A stretch of DNA of 64,000 nt from NCBI RefSeq assembly GCF_009687865.1, contig NZ_BLAE01000014.1, forward strand, positions 35,213 through 99,212, in the 5' to 3' direction. A program made the translations under genes and the position numbers. Numbering within the stretch: position 1 is the first letter of the stretch; every line of letters starts with the position of its first letter. Under the pieces are notes generated by a model that saw only the letters and a program-made list of their open reading frames with translations, ran no database searches and was not told the DNA's origin. Of the stretch, positions 39,404 through 43,210 are shown piece by piece. The stretch is from Acrocarpospora macrocephala. Its GTDB lineage: Bacteria; Actinomycetota; Actinomycetes; Streptosporangiales; Streptosporangiaceae.

Positions 39404-39614
39404 TGGCGGGGGCGGGCGGAGCCCGTGGGGAATCGAAGGGATGGGTGGGTGGGACATTCACGGTGACGGCCGGGGTGGAGTCCCGAGGTAGGTCAGGGTG
39501 GGGAGAGCCACGCGGATCAAGCTGCTGTTTCGTCGGGGTGACCGCGGTGTTGGCGGGGGTGGGCGGAGCCCGTGGGAAAACAAAGGGATGGGTGGGTGGG
39601 GAACAACCACGGTG
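39404..39614 (+). repeat. Dispersed GC-rich intergenic repeat, copy 2 (double module)
   Basis: Two similar modules (39404-39466 and 39541-39614), each with CGGGCGGAGCCCGTGGG, then AAAGGGATGGGTGGGTGGG and CACGGTG, flank a middle block 39467-39540. From about 39461 to 39600 the sequence matches the reverse complement of 43046-43190 with few differences. It lies about 130 bp before the TIGR04222-type gene. Confidence 0.8.
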
Positions 39615-39746: not shown

Positions 39747-40778
39747 ATGGAGCTGGTGCTTCTGGTCTCCGCGATCGTTATCGCGGTGCTGGTCTTCTCG
39801 GTCGCGTCGGCGGTGAGTCGAGAACTTCGGCGGGTCCGGTCCAGGCATACGCTCGGCGGGCCACCCCCGGACGTGTACGAGCTCGCGTACCTGGCCGGAG
39901 GGCCGCGACGGACGGTGAACACGGCGATCGCGATGCTCAGTGCGCAGGGCAAGATCCGGGTGGCCCGGGGCGGGCGGGTGACCACCGTGGCCGGCGCCGG
40001 CGGTTCGCGGGAGGCGGTCGAGCAGGAGCTCCTCGATCTGGCCGCCGTGCCCGGCGGTCGGACGGCCGGTGAGGTACGCCAAATAATGGCCCAAGGACCC
40101 GCGTTGATCGGGCTCATGCACCGGCTGATCGGCCGCGGCTACATGGTCCAAGACGCCGCCCTCACGCACGGCCGCGTCCTCAACCGCGGCCTGGGCTGGT
40201 TCGTCGTGTTGTCCGGCCTCAACTGGGTGATCTCGGTGGTGGCGCTCGCCACCGATTCGGTCCCGGTCAGCGTCTTCAATATCCTCGCCCTGGTCGCCGG
40301 CGCGTTCGTCAGCCTGATCGGCCTGGGCTTGCACCAGGCCAACCGGAACAGGCTGCGAAACCTGCTGACGAACGCCGGGTACGAGGTACTGAGCACGGCC
40401 CGGCTCACGCACCGACCCGGTTCCGGGGTCGGCCGGAACTTCGTCTTCTACTCCGACCACCACCCCGGCCACGCCAACGACAACGCCTTCGCGTACGCGG
40501 CGGTCGGCGGCGCGGTCGCGCTGTACGGCCTCGGCGAATTCAACTCGCCCGACGCGGCTGAGATCGCGAGAGAAGACCAGACCTCCGGGAGCAGCGGATA
40601 CGGGTGCGCGGCGGGCGCTTGCGGCGGCGGAGGCGGCGGGTCCAGCGATTCCAGCAGCTGGGGCTCCGACCCGGGCGGCTTCGGCGGTGGGGACTTCGGC
40701 GGCGGCTCCAGCGATTCGGGCGGCGGCTCGAGCTGCGGTGGCGGTGGCTGCGGCGGTGGCTGCGGTGGTGGTGGTTGA
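39747..40778 (+). CDS. TIGR04222-type membrane protein with Cys/Gly-rich tail
   Basis: A 343-residue protein with GGAGG 4 bases before the ATG. An N-terminal span ([20 protein letters not shown]) is followed by a conserved cytoplasmic domain ([25 protein letters not shown], in pieces; [18 protein letters not shown]) that I associate with TIGR04222. A pair of spans follows near residues 148-190 ([38 protein letters not shown]). The last 57 residues are Gly/Ser/Asp low complexity with five Cys, at about 287, 292, 330, 335 and 339, ending [15 protein letters not shown]. The next gene encodes a DUF692 oxidase, a family that modifies peptide cysteines, so this tail is a candidate substrate (inference). 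Confidence 0.82.
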
Positions 40779-40825
40779 GGTGGCGGCTGATCCCGCTCGC
40801 TCGCATGTCCCTCCGCTGAGTGAGG

Positions 40826-41275
40826 GCTTGCCGGATTCGTCGGGGCAGGGTCTTTCCGCGCACCCGCTGGGTTCCGCGCCCTTGCCGGATTTCTTAGGGC
40901 AGGGCTCTTCCGCGCACCCGTCGGATTCCGGGCACTTGCCGGATTCGGCGCCACGGGGTTCTTCGCCACGAGGTTCTTCAGCGCATCCGGTGGCTTCCGG
41001 ACACTTGTCGGATTCTGCTTCACGGGAGGATCGGGGATTCTCCGCGGATCCGTTGGATTCTGGGCACTTGCCAGATTCTGCGCCATGGGAGGGGCGGGGG
41101 TTCTCCGGGGATCCGTTGGGTTCTGGGCGCTTGCCGGATTCGGTGCCACGGGAGGGGCAGGGTTTTTCAGCGCATCCGATGGATTCCGGGCGCTTGTCGG
41201 ATTTTGCTTCGCGGGAGGGGCGGGGGTTCTCCGCGGAATCGTTGGGTTCTGGGCGCTTGTCGCTGTTTTCGCCGT
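40826..41275 (+). repeat. Imperfect 60-63 bp tandem repeat array before the DUF692 domain
   Basis: Seven or so diverged units, each with a version of TTGCCGGATTC, GGGAGGGGC, and TCCGCGGATCCG. All are in frame with the DUF692 domain with no stop, encoding about 21-residue units such as [16 protein letters not shown]. Third-position GC is lower than in neighbouring genes, so it may be either a translated linker or an untranslated leader. Confidence 0.7.
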
Positions 41276-42132
41276 CGGAAGCGCCTCTCACCGGGAGCGG
41301 TCGATCGAGGGGGCCACGGGTCGAGTTGGGGGTGGGGATCGGATGGCGGTCCGAGATCGATCTCACCGTGGAGCGGCTGCCGGGGGTCGAGTTCGTTGAG
41401 GTGATCGCGGAGACGTTGCGGCCGGGGCGGCTTCCGGAGTCGTTGCGGGTGTTGCGGGAGCGTGGGGTGCCCGTGATTCCGCACGGGGTGGCGCTGGGGA
41501 TCGGCGGCGCCGACAAGCCGGAAATTTCGCGACTTGAGCACTTGGCCGCTTGCGCGGAAGCCCTGGACGCGCCGCTGGTCAGCGAACATCTGGCCTTCGT
41601 CCGGGGCGACGGCATGGAGGCCGGTCACCTGCTCCCCGTTCCCCGGACCCGCGATGCGCTGACGGTCGTCGTCGAGAACATCAAGATCGCGCAAGCCGAG
41701 TTGCCCGTTCCATTCGCGCTGGAGAACGTCGCCGCCCTGTTCGGCTGGCCCGACGACGAGCTCACGGAGGCCGAATTCCTCGGCGAACTCGTCGAACGCA
41801 CCGGCGTCAAGCTGCTCATCGACGTGGCCAACCTCTACACCAACGAGGTGAACCTGGGCTCCGACGCCAAAGCCGCCCTCGATCGCCTGCCTCTCACCGA
41901 ACTGGCCTATGTCCACGTCGCCGGCGGACACTCCCACAACGGCGTCTGGCACGACACCCACACCGCCTCCGTCCCGGAACCCATTCTGGACGTCCTTACC
42001 GAACTCTGTAGCCGTGTCGACCCGCCAGGAGTCCTCCTGGAATGGGACGACGACTACCCAAGCGACGCCGCCCTCGCCCAAGAACTCACCCGCATCCGCA
42101 CCGCGATGAGCCGAGCCTCCACCCACCCATGA
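41179..42132 (+). CDS. DUF692 (MNIO) multinuclear non-heme iron oxidase
   Basis: TIM-barrel protein of the family that includes MbnB, TglH and ChrH, which oxidise cysteines of ribosomal peptides with two or three irons. Metal-ligand motifs are visible: [58 protein letters not shown] and [11 protein letters not shown]. The barrel begins [12 protein letters not shown] near 41323. The start is uncertain: ATG 41179 lies within the tandem repeats; TTG 41326 or GTG 41332 would give a minimal enzyme of about 268 residues; the frame is open back into the upstream gene. It overlaps the next gene by ATGA, so enzyme and partner are co-translated. Confidence 0.88.
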
Positions 42133-43016
42133 CCGACCCTCAACCTCACCCGGCACCTCCAACGAGCCCGGCAGATCCCACGACACCCCCAGCTGCTGCC
42201 GACCCTGCGGGTCCGATGGCCTCTGCGGATTCCGTGGCCTCTGCGGATTCCGTGGCCTCTGCGGGTTCGTCGGAGTTTGTGGGGCTGGTGGAGTTGGGCT
42301 CTGTGGGGCGGGTGGACTCTGCGGGGCTGGTGGACTCTGCCGGTTCGGCAGGTCCTGCGGGTTCGTTGGGCTCGGGGGACTTTGTGGGTTCGGCAGATCC
42401 TGCGGGTTCATTGGGCTCGGGGGACTCTGGGGGTTCGTTGGAGTTTGTGGGGCTGGTGGAGTTGGGCTCTGTGGGGCGGGCGGATTCTGCGGGGCGGGCG
42501 GATTCTGCGGGGCTGGTGGATTCTGCGGGGCTGGTGGACTCTGCCGGTTCGGCAGATCCTGGGGGGTCGCAGAACTCTGTTGATGTGGCTCGGGAGCGCC
42601 TGGCCGTGGCCGAAGGTCGATTGCTTGCGGCTCTGGTCGCCGGGGGTCCGGAACCTCCCGGCTTCGATGGTTCCCGCCTGAGGATTCAGGCACATAGCTT
42701 GATCGCCAAACGACGCGGTCTGGTGGCGACCGCTCTTCCCGCGCTGGCCTCCGCGCTCGGTGGGAACTTCGCCCGCGAGTTCTTCGACTACGCCAACGGC
42801 CGACCCAAACCGCCTGGCGGCTCCCGCGCCGACGCCCGAGCCTTCGCCGAATGGCTTCGCGCGGAAGGCCGCCTCCCCGAGCAACCCGACAGGACGGACA
42901 GCCCAAAGGCCGTCAAACCCTCGGGCATGGGAAGCCAGGCAATCGTTTGGGCTGGAGAGGAAGTCGCCCAGTCCCCGTGGTGGCGACGGTGGCGACAGCG
43001 TAAGCAGCCGAGCTGA
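42129..43016 (+). CDS. SCO6045-like partner of the DUF692 enzyme, with repetitive N-terminus
   Basis: A 295-residue protein. Residues about 1-150 are low complexity ([13 protein letters not shown], then repeats of [12 protein letters not shown] and GSLGSGD). The folded C-terminal domain starts [28 protein letters not shown] and continues [42 protein letters not shown] and [17 protein letters not shown] (in pieces). This matches what I recall of the SCO6045-like C-terminal domain, a helical partner found with or fused to DUF692 proteins, comparable in role to MbnC. ATG 42129 overlaps the DUF692 stop. It may recruit the substrate tail to the oxidase. Confidence 0.72.
42218..42570 (+). repeat. 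Minisatellite-like repeats in the partner gene
   Basis: Short in-frame units of 15-18 bp: GGCCTCTGCGGATTCCGT is repeated directly at the start and GGACTCTGCGGGGCTGGT and variants recur further on. A larger duplicated block containing TTTGTGGGGCTGGTGGAG appears near 42279 and 42446. Units are multiples of three and keep the frame. There are no unique spacers, so it is not a CRISPR array. Confidence 0.8.
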
Positions 43017-43042: not shown

Positions 43043-43210
43043 TACGTGGTTTTCCCACCCACCCATCCCTTTGTTTCCCCTCGGGCTCCGCCCGCCCCCG
43101 CCAACACCGCGGTCACCGGAACGAAGCGGCAGCTTGATCCCCGTGGTTCTCCCACCCTGGTCTACCTCGGGACTCCGCACCGGCCGTCACCGTGGTTCTC
43201 CCACCCAGCC
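43043..43210 (-). repeat. Dispersed GC-rich intergenic repeat, copy 3
   Basis: Inverted relative to copy 2. Read on the minus strand it contains GGGTGGGAGAACCACGGTGAC, GGAGTCCCGAGGTAGACC, GGATCAAGCTGC, GACCGCGGTGTTGGCGGG and CGGGCGGAGCCCGAGGGG blocks in the same order as 39461-39600. It begins 27 bp after the partner gene stop. Copies 2 and 3 therefore bracket the DUF692 cassette as an inverted pair. (Individual blocks quoted are 21 bases or fewer and partly overlapping in meaning.). Confidence 0.8.

Follow-up and report, generated by a model that had tools for sequence, protein, structure and literature searches.

The Cys-rich tail of a TIGR04222 membrane protein as candidate substrate of an MNIO enzyme and its partner in Acrocarpospora macrocephala

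What does an enzyme of the MNIO (DUF692) family modify when the gene beside it encodes a Cys-tailed membrane protein and not a small free precursor peptide? The question is raised by a stretch of 64,000 nucleotides of Acrocarpospora macrocephala DNA (the window), in which positions 39747-43016 hold one tight plus-strand run with operon-like packing: genes for a TIGR04222 membrane protein, an MNIO enzyme and a partner protein, in that order (Table 1). The initial annotation of this DNA named the Cys tail as the substrate of the enzyme and left open whether the product would lie at the cytoplasmic or the outer face. Our comparisons suggest that the tail is probably the substrate of the MNIO acting with its partner: among TIGR04222 genes near an MNIO gene, 84 of 100 encode at least three Cys in a Gly/Ser setting, versus 8 of 75 elsewhere. 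The substrate idea passes the co-occurrence test in most of the lineages sampled; it fails at one group of loci, which we call Streptomyces-type. The charge pattern of the membrane protein and its homology with DUF2207 favour the cytoplasmic face.

Gene identities, published class and proposed chemistry

The membrane protein scores 100.5 bits in a profile search with NCBIfam TIGR04222 (cut-off 43) and belongs to that family; this match and the positions of its Cys (287, 292, 330, 335 and 339, and no others) bear out the earlier description of a membrane protein with five Cys, all within the last 57 residues. The second gene product belongs to Pfam PF05114 (MbnB_TglH_ChrH; 264.1 bits, E 1.5e-78, gathering score 25) and has the fold and the metal-site conservation of that family: the His, Asp, Asn and Glu columns conserved among its relatives align with the same residues of the solved 3BWW, TglH and MbnB, in agreement with the metal-ligand motifs first noticed. 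Particular residues among these are presumably the ones that bind metal. Its closest NCBIfam equivalog is BufB, at 183.7 bits and below the cut-off of 310, so that it does not count as a BufB equivalog. The MNIO reading frame stays open well upstream of the domain. Since the MNIO frame of A. pleiomorpha begins directly after the membrane-protein stop, sequence comparison makes GTG 40780, one base past that stop, the most likely start; it is from A. pleiomorpha that the nearest named MNIO comes (98% identical, among the best 80 of 572 matches). The start of the partner gene overlaps the MNIO end as ATGA, which we confirmed at 42129.

That the trio has no described function, as initially stated, holds for its function; the trio and the substrate idea have been published as a class by Antoine et al. 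2025 (PMC12452194), which we cite here and below from its accessible sections. These describe more than 3,500 TIGR04222 proteins with Cys in Gly/Ser C-terminal tails, a linkage to MNIO that is frequent and not general, and partners called PME-type 2; they propose that MNIO enzymes modify subsets of the TIGR04222 family at their Cys-rich tails, the modification and role being, per the authors, still to be investigated. As a proposal, the interpretation first given for the window thus has a precedent. The published clusters and the present one share their three components, the Gly/Ser tail Cys and the proposed substrate role. Experiments on modification of TIGR04222 tails were found neither in the open literature searched nor in those sections.

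We propose that the three genes would form a protein-modifying unit, in which MNIO and partner domain oxidise Cys in (Gly/Ser)-Cys-Gly motifs of the disordered TIGR04222 tail. The tail would lie on the cytoplasmic side, beside the cytosolic enzyme, and the product would stay anchored to the inner membrane face, as opposed to being a free or exported peptide. Likely products would be 5-thiooxazoles, as for the nearest characterised MNIOs, and a likely use the binding of a soft metal, such as copper, at the membrane. Both product and metal role we infer weakly, by analogy; thiooxazoles are the best guess because bufferin maturases, to which the enzyme comes closest, reportedly form 5-thiooxazoles that bind copper (PMC13097082, accessible part).

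The systems to which this analogy appeals are alike only in part. Bufferins and captophorins (BufB, HvfB and FonB, with DUF2063 partners) resemble the trio in that our MNIO is nearest BufB, in the several Cys mostly followed by Gly, and in a partner that adjoins the MNIO. Here, on the other hand, we find an integral membrane protein and a PME-type 2 like partner; a Sec-exported precursor with a DUF2063-RRE (PME-type 1) partner, the combination that marks a bufferin or captophorin locus, was not found at the trio. Precursors there are peptides exported by a Sec signal, with PME-type 1 partners (PMC12452194). TglHI and MbnBC share the enzyme fold (VIA-align, using only the enzyme part of the fused enzyme) and the principle of an enzyme with a partner. 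They reportedly act on small peptide substrates and yield other products; to our knowledge, the characterised MNIO enzymes all act on small peptides. If the TIGR04222 tail is modified in place, MNIO enzymes would also edit proteins, and a large actinobacterial membrane protein family of unclear role would gain a testable function.

Dependence of Cys tails on MNIO

Comparison across genomes shows that the Cys tails depend on MNIO. TIGR04222 and MNIO were searched in 197 genomes spread evenly over the class and in 150 genomes of the family; DNA was fetched around the TIGR04222 genes above cut-off, and 175 genes were counted. We chose two limits ourselves: a gene is near when it lies within 6 kb of an MNIO gene, and a Cys is in a Gly/Ser setting when Gly and Ser make up 60% of the residues within five positions on either side. 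Second fragments of split genes (five rows: four TIGR04222, one MNIO), the family row G282, which has an internal stop, and rows under cut-off were excluded from the counts. In the family sample, Cys tails occur in 66/70 genes near MNIO versus 4/55 others; in the class sample the figures are 23/35 versus 4/26 (23/35 versus 3/26 by an earlier, coarser form of the Gly/Ser rule). Counted by genus, the association reads 32/33 near MNIO versus 5/30 not near, and where a genus has both kinds (nine genera) the near-MNIO copies are the Cys-richer in eight and the poorer in one. Genomes without MNIO have a Cys tail in 1 of 43 TIGR04222 genes, and that lone gene (G079) lies at the edge of a contig, which cuts off its downstream side. 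Gene order also matters: the tail is present in 76/81 cases when the membrane protein precedes MNIO and in 8/19 when it follows.

Could drift of GC-rich, low-complexity tail DNA have produced the Cys incidentally? Gly and Ser codons lie one change from Cys, and tail lengths vary. The composition of the tails speaks against mere drift of Gly codons: when the last 40 residues are tallied in the 84 Gly/Ser-rich tails encoded near MNIO, Cys ranks third (9.8%) after Gly and Ser, while Ala (2.3%), Val (0.6%) and Arg (0.3%) are rare. Nor does drift sit well with the near absence of Cys tails where MNIO is missing, or with four other loci of the genus, each with five or six tail Cys; in these four, both Cys groups are kept and the stretch between them varies in length. 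We give drift hardly any credence. A tail Cys is followed by Gly in 357/425 cases, and four residues is the commonest spacing. (One alignment, A1, comprises 85 of 87 candidates selected for at least three tail Cys, so that its Cys conservation is partly due to selection.)

Several observations weigh against the substrate role. The first concerns the tail itself: Gly/Ser tails overall are rare in genomes without MNIO (4/42, versus 84/99 near MNIO), so that what tracks MNIO is the Cys-bearing tail as a whole, and the counts are a weak test of the Cys taken separately. Seen from the enzyme, the co-occurrence with DUF692 that the initial annotation suggested checking is incomplete: of the 111 MNIO genes in the two samples, 80 lie within 6 kb of a TIGR04222 gene (69 of a Cys-tailed one), and 31 have none over cut-off at that distance. 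Of the 80 loci, 3 beyond the Streptomyces type also lack a three-Cys copy, namely G181 (no Cys), G259 and G305 (two each). Among recurrent flanking genes of the 103 loci compared, where most clusters were not identified, we recognised no metal system, and nothing that ties the trio to metals was seen in its surroundings.

The most pointed exceptions are the Streptomyces-type loci, a label that we give to family f18 of the class sample after its named relatives. Ten TIGR04222 genes of this type stand beside an MNIO gene and encode no tail Cys at all, with MNIO and partner kept; eight of the ten loci are devoid of any Cys-tailed copy, and the other two (G182 and G173) have a Cys-tailed copy in addition to the Cys-less one. 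Of these eight genomes, four (G073, G101, G123 and G133) have a distant TIGR04222 copy with one Gly-flanked Cys. A substitute precursor did not emerge: a search of 19 Streptomyces-type loci turned up no convincing conserved small Cys-rich open reading frame (at least 25 residues, in at least six loci), which again tells against a substrate role. The recurrent small frames at these loci were inspected by eye as precursor candidates and rejected, as they resembled frames of other genes or the Cys-less TIGR04222 copy. Altogether, 16 near-MNIO genes have fewer than three Cys. Besides the ten of Streptomyces type they comprise three with two Cys each (G254, G259 and G305), the gene in G181, a second copy in G128 and a fragment in G260.

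These loci lend themselves to another explanation, in which the tail is an unmodified, metal- or redox-active Cys scaffold, MNIO and partner act on something else, and a common stress response accounts for the linkage. That eight Streptomyces-type loci keep MNIO and partner with a Cys-less copy only would then be expected, as would the few Cys-tailed genes away from MNIO. What such a scaffold explains poorly is the dependence of the tails on MNIO across genera, and the way in which the unit holds together while its flanks differ: uppS-like and phoH-like genes recur as neighbours in 29 and 28 of the 103 loci, versus hemY/hemQ-like genes flanking the Streptomyces-type loci. (We assign these four gene names from the look of the translations.) We consider an unmodified scaffold improbable, and the tail probably a substrate.

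A named set, the best 80 of 572 matches, is not independent of these counts, as its organisms overlap those of the other samples and its profiles were built from them. In this set of the best 80, 15 loci lack a tail with at least three Cys: the tail Cys number two in five loci, one in one locus and zero in four, and the other five give no TIGR04222 match, with one side shortened by a contig end in three of these.

The side of the membrane on which the tail lies

If the tail is modified, where does the product reside? An AlphaFold2 model of the membrane protein has a mean predicted local distance difference test score (pLDDT) of 81.3, with residues 284-343 below 50. The likeness of its soluble domain to a winged helix comes from the model together with weak GntR/HTH matches (E 0.023 and 0.046); Foldseek found no structural relative in the PDB better than E 1.4; the lack of such a match is no proof of a new fold. 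In the 85 aligned Cys-tailed relatives, Lys and Arg are biased to the position after the first transmembrane helix (TM1) in 78/83, before TM2 in 79/84 and after TM3 in 71/84 (the reverse in 6). This pattern places the N-terminus outside, the winged-helix-like domain inside, then a hairpin, and the C-terminal side inside.

A profile-profile alignment joins TIGR04222 with DUF2207 over 210 columns (97%, E 7.2e-11); PF20990 is touched by 16 of the 85 members at E 0.1 or better (best 2.9e-4). DUF2207 (PF20990) proteins are thus homologous to the membrane protein over these columns, and some also end in a Gly/Ser tail, although the six such tails inspected carry no Cys. They are predicted to have an extracellular N-terminus, with an extra external N-terminal domain that is a further difference, and an 'intercellular' (evidently intracellular) Gly/Ser-rich C-terminus (PMC10457818, accessible part). 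Because of this homology and the charge patterns, we place the tail on the cytoplasmic face with moderate confidence, a placement that is predicted from sequence and that contradicts the published topology.

Antoine et al. 2025 (PMC12452194) put the tail in the periplasm, on the strength of a predicted topology and of analogy with the exported bufferins; this counts against our placement. The tail would then be modified in the cytosol before or during insertion and afterwards pass through the membrane, leaving the product on the cell-wall side. A fourth helix, residues 245-260, precedes the tail. It could cross the membrane: its flanking charges fit an in-to-out passage (mean Lys/Arg on the N-side 2.04, versus 0.81), a second point against a cytoplasmic tail. 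Against export, this helix spans a mere 16 residues in the model and its hydrophobicity is weak, with a mean hydropathy of 1.21 versus 2.27 to 2.34 for TM1-3, and only 18% of the 85 members reach 1.6 there; moreover it is included in the profile alignment, opposite a helix of DUF2207, a family with a Gly/Ser C-terminus that has been assigned to the cell interior (PMC10457818). We regard an exported tail as somewhat unlikely. The fuller picture that goes with a cytoplasmic tail, in which MNIO chemistry on a permanently tethered tail would yield an anchored array of modified Cys on a DUF2207-type scaffold in many actinobacterial genera, is one that we put forward tentatively.

Partner domain, fusions and repeats

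The linkage of MNIO with the partner domain, and their natural fusion, are also shown by the comparison: of 85 MNIO loci, 83 have the domain, either encoded after MNIO or fused with it (one of the 83 matches, in G149, is partial), and in 21 of the 85 it is fused. The count covers 85 of the 111 MNIO genes and speaks for TIGR04222-linked MNIOs, because 80 of the 85 loci were taken owing to a nearby TIGR04222 gene. The published clusters differ in their figures, with a partner in at least 10% of all TIGR04222 clusters there, versus these 83/85 MNIO loci, mostly TIGR04222-linked here; the fusions and the argument for a cytoplasmic tail are further differences (PMC12452194). Two points, the MNIO-partner fusions and the homology of TIGR04222 with DUF2207, are mentioned neither in the open literature searched nor in the accessible sections of PMC12452194. 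As natural single-chain enzymes, the fusions would be convenient for reconstitution.

The partner, labelled SCO6045-like in the initial annotation, lies directly after MNIO and is without a DUF2063 signature, as expected of a PME-type 2 protein; profile searches of Pfam and NCBIfam gave no match, and there was no meaningful match among solved chains. As to a likeness to NGO1945 or TglI, similarity to DUF2063 is weak (2/34 members, best E 0.083) and not significant by profile, including hhalign to one DUF2063 protein, and the A. macrocephala genome itself has no DUF2063 match. Saccharothrix sp. NRRL B-16314 supplies one of the published examples of PME-type 2, a protein of 115 residues (PMC12452194); the partner at our locus from the same strain (L269) likewise has a 115-residue reading.

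Single loci add variations. In G038 (L049), the Cys tail of the membrane protein, judged by eye, runs into a stretch like the partner domain, as if the intervening MNIO had been deleted. At Streptomyces-type loci L079, L081 and L084-L089, an MNIO-partner fusion is retained beside a TIGR04222 copy lacking tail Cys. A record titled Streptosporangium nondiastaticum (L240) has MNIO and directly thereafter a TIGR04222 gene, with no partner domain detected. A. macrocephala itself encodes another MNIO on contig C10 (L099); this second enzyme is divergent, is extended at length at its C-terminus, and has no TIGR04222 neighbour and no partner of the trio type.

Table 1. Features of the trio, in window coordinates
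Feature	Position	Strand	Basis
TIGR04222 membrane protein, 343 residues: TM1, winged-helix-like domain, TM2-TM3 hairpin, short helix, Gly/Ser/Cys tail	39747..40778	+	
Cys tail, residues 287-343, proposed MNIO substrate	40605..40775	+	Positions, conservation in the genus, MNIO association
MNIO (DUF692) enzyme, 450 residues; domain from ~41329	40780..42132	+	PF05114; start inferred from A. pleiomorpha
Repeat insert, units of 54/63 nucleotides, N-terminal part of MNIO frame	40794..41313	+	Tandem repeats, comparison with L103
Partner, 295 residues, PME-type 2 like; conserved core of ~88 residues, then basic C-terminus	42129..43016	+	
Repeat-rich insert, N-terminal part of partner	42161..42545	+	Net ~354 nucleotides, in frame

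Also of interest are the repeats in and around the trio. The insert in the MNIO frame amounts to a net 522 nucleotides, in frame, and is absent from A. pleiomorpha, as is the insert in the partner; the two adjacent genes have been expanded with different repeats. An inverted repeat pair brackets the trio (39501-39603 and 43051-43153; 103 nucleotides, 89% complementary). This flanking repeat is a dispersed one, since the A. macrocephala genome contains 56 matches to a 76-base portion of it.
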